This document shows, one piece after another, positions 43,258-47,553 of a stretch of 64,000 bases of DNA. Position numbers and translations under genes: made by a program. The stretch lies in NCBI GenBank assembly GCA_004366385.1, contig ML178785.1, positions 141,828 to 205,827 of the forward strand, given 5' to 3'. The stretch is from Actinomycetota bacterium (GTDB lineage: Bacteria > Actinomycetota > Thermoleophilia > Gaiellales > Gaiellaceae). The notes beneath the pieces are model-generated. The model worked only from the letters and a program-made list of their open reading frames with translations, had not been told where the DNA came from and searched no databases. The number at the start of each line of letters is the position of its first letter. Position 1 is the stretch's first letter.

Positions 43258-43713
43258 ATGCAGCTGGACAGTCACATCGAAGCAATCCAGGGGGATCTCG
43301 CAGCGGCCGCAGGCCTCGGGGACGAGGCGGTCGCCCAGGCGGCGCAGCGGCTGATCGAAGCCCTCGGGACGACGCTCCACCTCCGACTCCTCGACCTCCT
43401 CGGCGAGGCGACGCTCGAGATCAGCGGCCAGCTCGTGAGTGGCCGTGTCGAGGTTCGCCTCGCCGGCCGCGAGCCCGAGCTCGTGGTCGTGTTGGAGGAG
43501 ACCCAGGACGCCGTGCAGATGGCACCCGGGGAGGAGTACTCGGGGCGCATCACGCTCCGCCTCCCGGAGTCGCTGAAGATCGCGATCGAGGCCGCGGCCG
43601 CCGAAGACGGCGTCTCGACCAACGCGTGGCTCGTGCGCACGCTCGCGCGCACAGCCGCCCCCCGCACCCACAAGCGCGGCAGGAACCGCCTTCAGGGCTA
43701 CGCCCAGGGTTGA
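43258..43713 (+). CDS. HicB-like protein with C-terminal ribbon-helix-helix domain
   Basis: A 151-residue protein. The first 90 residues are an unassigned alpha/beta domain; the C-terminal SGRITLRLPESLKIAIEAAA-AEDGVSTNAWLVRTLA region is an Arc/HicB ribbon-helix-helix DNA-binding fold. In actinobacteria this protein often precedes a DUF4097 gene, as here, rather than a HicA toxin; no HicA is present. It probably binds the TGATGTCA repeats at its own promoter. Confidence 0.78.
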   Translation: MQLDSHIEAIQGDLAAAAGLGDEAVAQAAQRLIEALGTTLHLRLLDLLGEATLEISGQLVSGRVEVRLAGREPELVVVLEETQDAVQMAPGEEYSGRITLRLPESLKIAIEAAAAEDGVSTNAWLVRTLARTAAPRTHKRGRNRLQGYAQG

Positions 43714-43861: not shown

Positions 43862-44707
43862 ATGCAGGTCTTCGACACTCCCGGGAGCGTCTCCCTCCGG
43901 TTTCGGCTCCCGAGTGGACGCGTCGTGGTCACGACGGCCGACGAGCCGCGGACGAGCGTCGAGCTCGTCCCGCTCGGCCGTCGTGGCTCCGACGCGATCG
44001 AGAACGTCGAGGTGACTGTCGACGAGCACGCCGGCGGTCACGTGATCACGGTCGAGGAGAAGGACCGCATCCGCTGGGGCCCGCTCCGCATCACGTGGGG
44101 CGCCGACGTCGAGGTGCGCGTGACGTGCCCTCCCGGCGCCGACGTCGATCTCTCCGGCGGCTCGACCGACCTGCGGGCCGACGGCGTGCTCGGCGAAGTC
44201 GAGGCCCGCACGGCCTCGGGCGACATCCGGCTCGAGACGGTCGCGAAGAAGCTCCAGGCGAAGACCGCGAGCGGCGACCTCTCCGTCCGGGCGATCGAGG
44301 CCGGCGGCTCCGTCGCCACGGTCTCGGGCGACCTCGAAATCGGCCGCGTCGAGGGGACGCTGAGCGCCCGCGCGGTCTCCGGGGACGCGCGCGTGCGCGT
44401 CGTCCGGGCGCTGCTGACCCTCTCGACGACGTCGGGCGACGTCGAGCTCGAGTCCGTCGAGGCCGGCGACGTCCGTATCCAGTCCGTGTCCGGCGACATC
44501 CGTATCGGCGTCGGCCGCGGCACGCGCGTCTTCATCGACGCCGCCTCGGTCTCGGGTCAGCTCACCTCCGAGCTCGGCCTCGAGGACGACGAGCCGTCGT
44601 CGGAGAGTGCCGAGGCCGAGCGCGAGCCGGCTCCGGTCGTCCCGCTCCAGGTGAAGACGGTCAGCGGGGACGTTTCGGTCGTCCGCGCGACGCCCGTGTC
44701 GGCCTAA
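43862..44707 (+). CDS. DUF4097 beta-strand repeat protein
   Basis: A 281-residue protein made mainly of repeated short strands with the SGD motif (ARTASGDIRLETVA, AKTASGDLSVRAIE, ATVSGDLEIGRVEG, ARAVSGDARVRVVR, STTSGDVELESVEA, QSVSGDIRIGVGRG), predicted to form a right-handed beta-solenoid. No signal peptide. Co-transcribed with the HicB-like gene. The family is common near envelope-stress and regulator genes but its activity is unknown. Its stop shares CTAA with the convergent gene. Confidence 0.82.
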   Translation: MQVFDTPGSVSLRFRLPSGRVVVTTADEPRTSVELVPLGRRGSDAIENVEVTVDEHAGGHVITVEEKDRIRWGPLRITWGADVEVRVTCPPGADVDLSGGSTDLRADGVLGEVEARTASGDIRLETVAKKLQAKTASGDLSVRAIEAGGSVATVSGDLEIGRVEGTLSARAVSGDARVRVVRALLTLSTTSGDVELESVEAGDVRIQSVSGDIRIGVGRGTRVFIDAASVSGQLTSELGLEDDEPSSESAEAEREPAPVVPLQVKTVSGDVSVVRATPVSA

Positions 44708-45066
44708 GACGGCCTAACCGCGCGGACCAGCGCGACGACGTCGTCCACGCGGCCCTCGCGCAGCAGGTCGTACACGCGCTCGTCGCCGGTGAGCCCCCGG
44801 CGGGCGGTGAGGATCGAGAACAGCCGCCCCTCGTCGACACCCGCCTCGCGAGCCGCGCGCACGATGCGGGGGATGCTCTGGAGCGGCTCGCGGCCGTCGA
44901 ACTGCCACGGCGGATACAGCCACACGGTCGAGCCCGGCTCGCGCACGGCGAGCAACTCCCCGCCGCGGCGCAGCGCGTCGATCTTCGCGGGCTCGATCGC
45001 CAGCCGTACCGCGAGCCACGTCGCGGGCTGGCAACCCTCGTAGCGGCCCTGGGTCGAGGTCGTCAC
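44704..45066 (-). CDS. Antitoxin-like / MbcA-type domain protein (tentative)
   Basis: A 120-residue protein. IEPAKIDALRRGGELLAVRE followed by WLYPPWQFDGREPLQSIPRI resembles the Xre/MbcA/ParS toxin-binding fold in which a Y-P-x-x-Q-F motif is conserved. No RES toxin gene is adjacent, so it could be solitary. GTG start with TAGGCT ending 7 bases upstream. It lies downstream of the TlpA-like gene with 24 bases between. Confidence 0.6.
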   Translation of the reverse strand: MTTSTQGRYEGCQPATWLAVRLAIEPAKIDALRRGGELLAVREPGSTVWLYPPWQFDGREPLQSIPRIVRAAREAGVDEGRLFSILTARRGLTGDERVYDLLREGRVDDVVALVRAVRPS

Positions 45067-45090: not shown

Positions 45091-45633
45091 TCACGGCAGC
45101 TGCGCGAGGAGCCCCGACCAGATCTGCTCGTCGCCGCCCCCCTGGTGCGACGCGACGATCCGGCCGTCCGCGTCCACCAGGACGAAGTGCGGCTGGTACT
45201 CGGCGCCGAGCGTCCGTGCCCGCGCACGCTCCGGGTCGAGGATCGACGGCCACGTCCAGCCGTACCGCTCGACGAAACCCTGTCCCTCTCCGAGCGAGCT
45301 GGCGACGCTCAGGCCCAGGTACTCGACCTCCGGGTGAGCCTGCTGGAACTCCGCGTAGGCGACCGCCTCGCTCTGGCAGGTGCTTCACCAGGACGACCAG
45401 ACGTTCACGAGCACCGGCCGGCCGCGGAAGTCCGCGAGCGCGAGCTCCTCGCCGTCCAGCGTCGTCCCCGCCACGGGCGGCGCTTCCGGCCGGGTCGGGT
45501 CGCCGCCCGGCTCCTCGGTCTCGACGGGAGGCGGCTCGGGCGCCGCCGGCGTCGTCTCCTGCGTGCTCCGCTCGCCTCCGCATGCGGCCACGGCGAGCGC
45601 GACGGCGGAGAGGACGAGGACGAGCGCACGCAC
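45091..45633 (-). CDS. TlpA-like lipoprotein thioredoxin with an in-frame TGA at the redox cysteine (candidate selenoprotein)
   Basis: Read through one TGA (45387-45385), this is a complete 180-residue protein. Lipoprotein signal VRALVLVLSAVALAVAAC (lipobox AVAAC), Pro/Glu linker, then a TlpA/ResA-type thioredoxin fold. TLDGEELALADFRGRPVLVN leads to VWSSW-[TGA]-STCQSEAVAYAEFQ. The fold continues with EYLGLSVASSLGEGQGFVER, WTWPSILDPERA and YQPHFVLVDADGRIVASHQG. TGA is codon 83, exactly the first Cys of CxxC; the partner Cys86 is intact. No start codon follows the TGA that could restart the second half. TACAGT ends 6 bases before the GTG. A nonsense mutation or base error would also explain it. 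Confidence 0.78.
45357..45384 (-). promoter_or_regulatory. Candidate bacterial SECIS stem-loop after the TGA
   Basis: Two alternative hairpins start right after the TGA. (A) ACC-U-GCC, loop AGAGCGA, GGC-GGU (45381-45362): six pairs with a bulged U and a G at loop position 2, like the upper stem of E. coli fdhF, but the loop is only 10 bases from the TGA. (B) AG-a-GCGA, loop GGCGG, UCGC-CU (45374-45357): six pairs, G first in the loop, 17 bases from the TGA, within the usual distance, but the bulge is A. Either is suggestive, neither decisive. Confidence 0.45.
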
Positions 45634-45676
45634 GCGTCCACTGTAGAGACGGGCGCGAACGGCCGATGGAGAGAGC

Positions 45677-46696
45677 ATGCGGCGCCTCTTCGCCTTCGCC
45701 TGCATGCTCGCCCTTGGGGCGGCCGCCGCCGGCACCGCCGGCGCGCAGTCCGGCGCGCGCTCGTGGGCCACGCCGCAGATCCGGGCCGTCGTGGATGCCG
45801 GCCTCATGGGGCCGAGCGTCGGCGCGTTCCGGCCGCAGGACCCGGTCACCGCCGGTGAGCTCGCGCCCGTTCTCGCCACCTTCGGCCTCGAGATCGCCGT
45901 CGCCGACCCCGCGCGGCCGGTCCTCCTGCGCGAGCTCGACGCGCAGCTCGTCACCGCCGCCGGGCTCCGCGAGCAGGCGCGCGTGCTCCAGCGCACCGCC
46001 TTCGACGCGGGCCTGAAGCCAACGAGGTGGCTCGGGACCGAGACCGTCGCGCGCCTGCTCGGCCTGCGCCTCAACCACACGAAGGATCGCGAGCACCTCG
46101 AGCTCCAGCTCGACCAGCCCGCGACGCGCGCCGAGGCCGCGTACTCGCTCGCGCGGCTCCTCTCCCTGACCGAGACGGAGGTCGAGAGCGTCCGTGCGCT
46201 CGCCGACTCGTTCTACCTCCCCGCGCTCACCGCCGCCCAGCGGACGCTGCTCGCGCGCGCGGCGAAGCTCGTCGGCTCGCCGTACGTGTGGGCGGGGACG
46301 TCCGAGCGCCCGCAGCGGCTCGGCGGCAAGCTCCGGCCGGGCGGCTTCGACTGCTCCGGCTTCGTCTGGCGCGTCGTCAAGCTCCAGCCGACGCCGGGCG
46401 CACGCTGGCTCACGTCGGCGCTGAAGGGCCGGACGACCTTCGAGATGAGCGGTGAGTTCCCGAAGCGGGCACGCGTGACGCGCGCTGCGCTCCAGCCGGC
46501 CGACGTCGTCTTCTTCGGCACGCGCGGCCCGCGCTCGAAGCCGAACGAGGTGGGGCACATGGGGATCTACCTCGGGAACGGCTGGATGGCGCACTCGTCC
46601 GACCGCGGCACGACGCTGACGCCGATGACCGGTTGGTACGAGACGCGCTTCGCCTGGGGGCGGAACGTCCTCGCCGAGGTCGGCCCGGCGGTCTGA
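45677..46696 (+). CDS. Secreted NlpC/P60 peptidoglycan hydrolase
   Basis: A 339-residue protein with signal peptide (LFAFACMLALGAAAAGTAGA). Two SLH-like/repeat helical modules (WATPQIRAVVDAGLMGPSVG and RTAFDAGLKPTRWLGTETVA) precede the C-terminal NlpC/P60 domain: Cys226 in GGFDCSGFVWR, His294 in EVGHMGIYLGNG, and His306. It is probably a gamma-D-Glu-diaminopimelate endopeptidase acting on the wall. ATG follows GGAGAG. It is divergent from the thioredoxin-like lipoprotein with 43 bases between, so both may serve the envelope. Confidence 0.85.
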   Translation: MRRLFAFACMLALGAAAAGTAGAQSGARSWATPQIRAVVDAGLMGPSVGAFRPQDPVTAGELAPVLATFGLEIAVADPARPVLLRELDAQLVTAAGLREQARVLQRTAFDAGLKPTRWLGTETVARLLGLRLNHTKDREHLELQLDQPATRAEAAYSLARLLSLTETEVESVRALADSFYLPALTAAQRTLLARAAKLVGSPYVWAGTSERPQRLGGKLRPGGFDCSGFVWRVVKLQPTPGARWLTSALKGRTTFEMSGEFPKRARVTRAALQPADVVFFGTRGPRSKPNEVGHMGIYLGNGWMAHSSDRGTTLTPMTGWYETRFAWGRNVLAEVGPAV

Positions 46697-46909: not shown

Positions 46910-47158
46910 ATGGCCCGGATGCGCAGGATCCAGGTGGTGATCGACCCGGAGCTCGACGATCGGCTCGCGCGGGAGGCCGCGGCGCGCGGCACGTCGAAGA
47001 GCGCCCTCGTCCGCGAAGGCGTCCAGCGCGTGCTCGAGCCCGTGCCGTTCGACAACGGGCTCTTTCGGCTGGGCGAGGAGCTGAGCGGACTGTTCGACGA
47101 CGTGGAGCCGGAAGACATCGACACCGTGCTCTACGGCCCGCTCGAGGCTGACTCGTGA
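46910..47158 (+). CDS. vapB: VapB-type ribbon-helix-helix antitoxin
   Basis: An 82-residue protein: MARMRRIQVVIDPELDDRLA then EAAARGTSKSALVREGVQRV, an Arc/MetJ ribbon-helix-helix domain, followed by an acidic C-terminal tail (LSGLFDDVEPEDIDTVLYGP) that should bind the toxin. The start lies directly after an inverted-repeat operator. The stop overlaps vapC (GTGA). Confidence 0.82.
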   Translation: MARMRRIQVVIDPELDDRLAREAAARGTSKSALVREGVQRVLEPVPFDNGLFRLGEELSGLFDDVEPEDIDTVLYGPLEADS

Positions 47159-47553
47159 CGTTCGTCGACAGCTCGTTCTGGATCGCACGGTTCGTTCGGA
47201 ACGACAGCCGCTACGAGGAGGCGCGGACACTGTCGCTCGCGGTGGCGGATCGGCGCCTCGCGACATCCAACCTCGTCGTCGGCGAGACGTGGACGTACCT
47301 CCGTCGCAAGCGCGGGCATCGCGAGGCGATGACGTGGCTCGACGGGGTGACTGGGCAGATCGACGTGCAGGTGGTTCCGGTCGACCGCGATCTCGAGGCC
47401 GAGGCGTGGGGCTGGTTGCGTACCCACCACGAGCGGCCGTACTCGTTCGTCAACGCCACGAGCTTCGCGCTCATGCGCAAGCTGCGGATCCGGGACGCGC
47501 TCGCCTTCGACGGCGACTTCGCCGCCGCCGGCTTCACCGAGCTCCGGGTCTAA
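47155..47553 (+). CDS. vapC: VapC-type PIN ribonuclease with an Asp-to-Asn change in the active site
   Basis: A 132-residue PIN domain. Acidic residues Asp5 (TFVDSSFW), Glu44 (VVGETWTY) and Asp119/Asp121 (LAFDGDF) are present. The third conserved Asp, normally in SF(T/V)D-x-x-SF, is Asn100 (YSFVNATSFALM). This residue binds Mg/Mn in VapC toxins, so activity may be reduced or lost. The gene is otherwise complete and overlaps vapB. Confidence 0.82.
   Translation: MTFVDSSFWIARFVRNDSRYEEARTLSLAVADRRLATSNLVVGETWTYLRRKRGHREAMTWLDGVTGQIDVQVVPVDRDLEAEAWGWLRTHHERPYSFVNATSFALMRKLRIRDALAFDGDFAAAGFTELRV

Follow-up and report, generated by a model that had tools for sequence, protein, structure and literature searches.

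The UGA codon at the first catalytic cysteine position of a predicted lipid-anchored, ResA/TlpA-like thioredoxin-fold protein is, to judge from sequence, very probably decoded as selenocysteine (Sec) in an actinobacterium of the Gaiellaceae. The gene lies in the 64,000-nucleotide stretch of DNA that we analyzed (the window), and its features are collected in Table 1. The original prediction described a minus-strand frame from 45633 to 45091 that is unbroken save for one TGA at 45387-45385. We confirmed this TGA as the sole interruption: read-through gives 180 residues, and the terminal stop is a second TGA at 45093-45091. The read-through product carries a lipobox (V15-A16-A17-C18) and then the stretch W-S-S-W-[TGA]-S-T-C86. 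Its description as a lipoprotein with a thioredoxin fold held as well, the V-A-A-C18 lipobox by eye and the fold by Pfam matches above cut-off to Redoxin (PF08534, 62.5 bits, cut-off 26.6) and AhpC-TSA (PF00578, 57.8 bits, cut-off 26). As assessed by eye, the C-G-G of the lipobox is retained in several relatives and 2 relatives, L015 and L016, are without a lipobox. A TACAGT box, which had been taken as support for expression, does lie six bases before the GTG start as described, but it is suggestive and gives no evidence of expression; of 9 relatives compared, 4 (L011, L012, L013, and L190) carry it 6 to 7 bases ahead of the chosen start, and the other 5 differ.

Table 1. Features of the predicted selenoprotein gene and its surroundings (positions in the window).
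Feature	Position	Strand	Basis or remark
Sec-type ResA/TlpA-like lipoprotein gene (predicted), internal TGA read through, 180 aa	45091..45633	-	frame, Pfam, AlphaFold2 model, PDB folds
In-frame TGA predicted to encode selenocysteine at residue 83, the U of UxxC	45385..45387	-	position common to the TGA copies of two families
TGC codon of the retained second (resolving) Cys86	45376..45378	-	frame and relatives
Signal peptide and lipobox V-A-A-C18	45580..45633	-	by inspection; helix 2-17 in the AlphaFold2 model
TACAGT, which may be the -10 box for a leaderless transcript	45640..45645	-	inference only
Predicted bSECIS hairpin GCGAGGC-GGUC-GCCUACGC, one bulged A on the 3' arm	45353..45371	-	folding, synonymous-codon constraint
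Divergent secreted NlpC/P60 hydrolase, single Cys past the signal peptide (C226 of GFDCSG), possible partner	45677..46696	+	PF00877, 48.7 bits
Gene of 120 aa downstream, without a Pfam match; of 16 loci compared, 4 (relatives L011-L014) have it next to the Sec gene	44704..45066	-	

We checked whether close relatives have TGA or TGC at this codon. With the read-through protein as query, at least 20 TGA-bearing matches were obtained in 299 genomes of the class; in 20 of 20 the TGA stood at the codon of residue 83 and the second Cys was kept, and the 26 stop-free relatives examined alongside them have TGC or TGT at the site. A profile search (E 1e-30) of 103 genomes of the window's family returned 36 places, 23 with TGA, in 19 genomes, and 13 stop-free; eight of these TGA copies were new, with the same codon and the second Cys retained. 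The claim that the TGA falls on the first catalytic Cys of the CxxC motif, with Cys86 kept, was borne out throughout: codon and second Cys are the same in 23 of 23 copies of the window's family and in 5 of 5 copies of a second family (f7). TGC or TGT occupies the codon in all 30 distinct stop-free relatives fetched. The TGA is shared and recurs in separately assembled genomes, which confirms that it is a trait of the family and that the observation is real.

In a search of 5.8 billion proteins 167 matches passed; among the 120 of these that were listed, 28 stop one residue short of the site, 5 have Trp at the site, as a TGA=W code would give, and 10 have NVWASW followed by CxxC and are ordinary Cys relatives. 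One truncated database copy (P0041) is labelled Gaiellaceae. In the metagenome proteins P0002-P0006, which read WSSWW-S/T-x-C, the TGA was apparently taken as Trp on short contigs, a trap for mis-annotation.

Downstream of the hairpin that follows the TGA (see below), all 9 pairs tested showed purifying selection, with dN/dS values of 0.05 to 0.40 by simple counting, and therefore translation probably continues past the TGA. A lone TGA in an otherwise open frame, and public proteins that end right before the site, might suggest a mistake in sequencing or assembly, or else a pseudogene that is decaying after a nonsense mutation. This explanation is scarcely credible, given the identical TGA in 23 copies from 19 genomes and the selection past it; moreover, a second stop was seen in a single family TGA copy, that of G277, whose additional TAA lies at a contig end. 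Very improbable, too, is that the UGA ends an 82-residue lipopeptide and that the remainder is made by re-initiation. Database relatives of the G168 type (P0008-P0012) do begin at a codon eight places past the TGA, but in the window no in-frame ATG, GTG, or TTG follows it until a GTG 70 codons further along, at residue 153, so that the absence of a restart codon stated in the original prediction holds in practice. In addition, the upstream piece would be without half the fold and the downstream piece without a signal peptide, and the second Cys is kept.

The choice of the true stop codon also differs between the two forms of the gene. TAA or TAG ends 17 of 21 family Sec genes, and TGA ends 11 of 15 family Cys genes (Fisher p 0.002, relatedness uncorrected). 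This comparison left out six duplicates, one stopless Cys gene, and L018 and L207, which are cut by contig ends or carry a stray TAA there. It looks as if UGA were avoided as a terminator in family Sec genes; the window gene is among the 4 that have a terminal TGA. These 4 bear on programmed read-through or reassignment of UGA to another residue (Trp or near-cognate) instead of Sec. Such decoding is suggested by the five database proteins translated with W at the site, but it has a very low probability because the frame of the window gene and those of 3 other family copies end in TGA, because the site is that of the catalytic Cys in every copy seen, and because a Sec gene set and a TGA-bearing formate dehydrogenase are present.

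The Sec machinery, which we looked for in the genome of the window (63 contigs, 97% complete), was found: selA (532 bits), selB, which adjoins selA and, although truncated where the contig ends, scores 312.7 bits, selD (above cut-off), and a tRNA-Sec with anticodon TCA (UCA). The tRNA gene is on a contig other than that of the selA locus, at which ARAGORN detected no tRNA. In the family, selA is present in 11 of the 19 genomes with the TGA, and selB is above cut-off in a twelfth; in the remaining 7, which are drafts (G135, G174, G261, G301, G302, G306, and G307), neither was detected. All 12 TGA-bearing family genomes tested for selD had it above cut-off, and 6 of the 12 tested for tRNA-Sec yielded one. 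selA is present in all 6 TGA-bearing genomes that reach 90% completeness with contamination no higher than 5%. Because selA is frequent in the family (55 of about 82 genomes, by hand count), co-occurrence alone is weak, and we dropped it as a statistic. A clean contrast to the TGA-bearing genomes comes from the same genus: G009, a genome in one contig in which the Sec gene is absent, gave no selA match, no selB or selD above cut-off, and no tRNA-Sec, its RF01852 match being a tRNA-Ser by ARAGORN, and its formate dehydrogenase is without a TGA. G057 has selA, tRNA-Sec, and a TGA-bearing formate dehydrogenase, yet no Sec copy was found in it.

The genome of the window also encodes a formate dehydrogenase (L088, contig C48, 92646-94664, minus strand) whose reading frame has a TGA preceding H-G-P and, after it, a GGUC-loop hairpin, and this is likely a second selenoprotein of the organism. 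The protein is unrelated to the TlpA-like one, and the order of UGA and GGUC-loop hairpin is the same; its stem is an unbroken 7 bp and its loop lies 23 nt past the UGA, whereas that of the TlpA-like gene lies 20 nt past it. The loop of the Escherichia coli fdhF hairpin is also GGUC.

The predicted hairpin of the TlpA-like gene starts 13 nt past the UGA, has its GGUC loop from 20 nt past it, and has a folding energy of -10.5 kcal/mol. Published limits for bacterial SECIS elements (bSECIS) are a loop of 3 to 9 nt, a stem of at least 4 bp, a G in the first two loop positions, a spacing of 16 to 37, and an energy of at most -7.5 (PMC13188914). Although 20 of 20 TGA copies fall within these limits, so do 483 of 600 random TGAs of the GC-rich window; the fit does not discriminate, and we dropped it as evidence. 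A more specific signal came from the codons. In the 17 genes of WSSW type among the 23 family copies, codons +4 to +11 past the TGA (8 columns) have a mean codon entropy of 0.27, versus 1.11 in 44 other conserved columns (p 0.0003 in a Mann-Whitney test of entropy relative to expectation). Each of three alanines in this stretch has a codon of its own in these genes: GCG at Ala+7 in 15 of 17, GCC at Ala+9 in 17 of 17, and GCA at Ala+11 in 14 of 17. Such near-frozen synonymous codons point to a constraint on the RNA rather than on the protein.

In the alignment the hairpin positions pair in 92.9% of 154 cells, versus 20% to 54% when the pattern is slid. No hairpin pair is altered on both sides in the 22 distinct rows, and the window hairpin does not exceed its dinucleotide-shuffled versions in stability (z 0.30). 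When the 21-nt core of the first 15 copies was shuffled synonymously, p values ranged from 0.02 to 0.61, 9 of 15 being under 0.05; on nt 10-55, 0 of 15 copies were under 0.10. In G261 most of the stem is missing. At gathering level, Rfam found three tRNAs and nothing else in the window. We also considered a fossil hairpin in L020, the Cys relative nested among the Sec genes (see below), and rejected it, its segment not forming that hairpin. On the selenocysteine reading, SelB and Sec-tRNA would bind the GGUC-loop hairpin and insert Sec at residue 83.

To place the protein, we built an AlphaFold2 model (45 sequences) and ran a fold search and a profile search, entering the TGA as Cys in all three. 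The model has a mean pLDDT of 91.9 and puts residue 83 directly before helix 84-99. Its nearest PDB folds are mostly ResA and related oxidoreductases (1su9, 1st9, and 4nmu at TMt 0.81-0.88), and DsbF and ResA rank first in the profile search. The read-through protein stays under the cut-off of all six NCBIfam families matched. Among these, ResA (NF002854) scores 55.9 bits versus a curated cut-off of 170, which makes the protein ResA-like without filing it as ResA, and the WAxxUGC selenoprotein (NF041054) scores 39.7 bits versus a cut-off of 300. The latter is alike in having a ResA-like fold with an active-site Sec, but its motif is UGC and that of the window protein is UxxC, outside the definition of the family. 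With ResA, TlpA, and CcmG (DsbE), the window protein has in common the fold, the CxxC frame, the invariant Pro148, the export signal, and a Glu three residues past the second Cys; it differs from them in its UGA-encoded first Cys, and the ccdA-like gene of its genome is on another contig than the Sec gene. The W before UxxC, P148 at the cis-Pro position, and E89 are features of the ResA/TlpA-like family. We regard the protein as a predicted lipoprotein of the ResA/TlpA type that is likely a selenoprotein.

The same features and the ResA-like nearest folds speak against a selenoprotein that acts mainly as a peroxidase of the Prx/GPx kind, with Sec83 reducing peroxides and Cys86 resolving. We regard that activity as unlikely, even though Redoxin is the best Pfam match and passages of the catalogues call such proteins Prx-like (PMC9312934, PMC13188914). 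By analogy with its ResA kin, our guess is that the Sec protein would be a reductase and not an oxidase or peroxidase. As an exported lipoprotein, it would use Sec83 to attack oxidized thiols, be they disulfides or sulfenic acids, on the outer side of the membrane, Cys86 would resolve the selenenyl-sulfide, and a membrane conduit, for example the single CcdA found, might return the protein to its reduced state.

A tree of 57 rows (duplicate loci and the partial L018 and L207 left out; L051 and L204 are one gene, entered twice) groups the 21 family Sec copies and the Cys gene L020 in one clade (99/93) and the 5 Sec copies of f7 in a separate clade (100/99). Given these separate clades, two origins of the Sec TlpA-like genes, or a transfer, are likely on sequence grounds. 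L020, inside the Sec clade, would be a reversion from Sec to Cys, a weak suggestion given its placement (88/40) on a long branch. The f7 Sec genes have a different hairpin, later than that of the window's family. Past the TGA (columns 28-52, the TGA being 1-3), L044-L048 carry a near-invariant palindrome, CTCGATAG-GT(T/A)-CTATCGAG, with L048 one base off. The stability of this hairpin exceeds that of synonymous shuffles in 5 of 5 copies (p at most 0.0175) and, on nt 10-55, in 3 of 5 at p values of at most 0.011, and its loop lies 35 nt past the UGA in four of the five. The palindrome is a strong SECIS candidate of another design. In f7 genomes (L080-L082 and others), selD is interrupted by a single internal TGA, a feature shared with known SelD proteins that contain Sec. 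Genome G168 holds four Sec-TlpA paralogues (L026, L040, L041, and L042) with sites of FAEHU, YAEHU, and FAEYU type, plus a Cys form; the formate dehydrogenase found in it has Cys at the site.

The surroundings of the gene were compared as well. The HicB-family (43258-43713, plus strand) and DUF4097 (43862-44707, plus strand) genes of the window are also near the Sec gene in L011, L012, and L013. Two small overlapping genes at 46910-47158 and 47155-47553 (both plus strand) resemble, by eye and by their motifs, a toxin-antitoxin pair of VapB/VapC type. Elsewhere in the genome, a Cys TlpA paralogue on contig C55 lies about 0.5 kb upstream of a CcdA-like match (L208, 471-1034 and 1501-2064), an ordinary ResA/CcdA pair. 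This is the one DsbD_TM (CcdA-like) match of the genome, and the Sec gene is on C48; we rejected a ccdA link of the Sec gene, and the position of the CcdA-like gene beside the Cys paralogue and away from the Sec gene makes the Sec protein look like a stand-alone branch.

The wall hydrolase from which the Sec gene was said to diverge is indeed there. A divergent secreted NlpC/P60 hydrolase adjoins the Sec gene in 11 of 23 loci, from two genera, and is absent in the other 12 within the compared DNA, of which some stretches are short. One of the neighbours (L182) is partial; the 10 copies showing the active site have, in the aligned stretch, one Cys past the signal-peptide region, the catalytic Cys of GFDCSG. 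In proteobacteria, according to passages of a published account, DsbG shields single-cysteine envelope proteins from oxidation (PMC7089426). We put forward, as a doubtful proposal, that Thermoleophilia-type actinobacteria on two or more occasions converted a ResA/TlpA reductase of the envelope into a selenoenzyme, and that the branch of the window guards the NlpC/P60 hydrolase, Sec83 reducing its single, otherwise unprotected catalytic Cys, as a selenium counterpart of DsbG.

Related selenoproteins are on record. Passages of two catalogues have entries for Prx-like thiol:disulfide oxidoreductases with UxxC (PF00578), for UGC forms, and for a redoxin family with UxxC, naming HEU0032618.1 and MBA3499694.1 as examples of a UxxC 'Redoxin family protein' (PMC13188914, PMC9312934), and those of the GOS survey give Prx-like 1 and 3 families with UxxC (PMC2398784). 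By description only, the Prx-like (PF00578) and Redoxin (PF08534) entries belong to the same Pfam families as the window protein and have the same motif; the passages of these three sources mention no form from Thermoleophilia and no lipoprotein form. A Sec TlpA is named in algae (PMC7539508); as described in part of that source, it is TlpA-like by name, eukaryotic, and has a hemerythrin domain. Among the matches listed in the open-licence literature there is no description of a Sec form of the TlpA-like lipoprotein of Thermoleophilia or Gaiellales; passages of PMC1794560 and PMC5029168 name no such lipoprotein, and none of the terms sought is present in the main text of the deep-Sep paper (PMC12013277). 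The original prediction knew of no described Sec form, which is too broad for UxxC Prx/TlpA-like Sec proteins, already catalogued, but the lipoprotein branch looks new. UxxC redoxin selenoproteins are known as a kind, and their lipoprotein branch in Thermoleophilia-type actinobacteria, set apart by descriptions only, is apparently undescribed.

The reading of the gene as a Sec envelope lipoprotein is supported by the Sec machinery in the genome, the TGA shared by relatives, and its recurrence across assemblies. If true, it would account for database proteins that stop half-way or read W, standard gene catalogues cutting the gene short. Bacteria for which the literature matches listed describe no Sec lipoprotein would also gain a conserved branch of selenoproteins, with two distinct clades of TlpA-like Sec proteins within a single class. 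Selenium would then do its chemistry at the cell surface, where the product of the neighbouring gene offers a substrate that can be tested.
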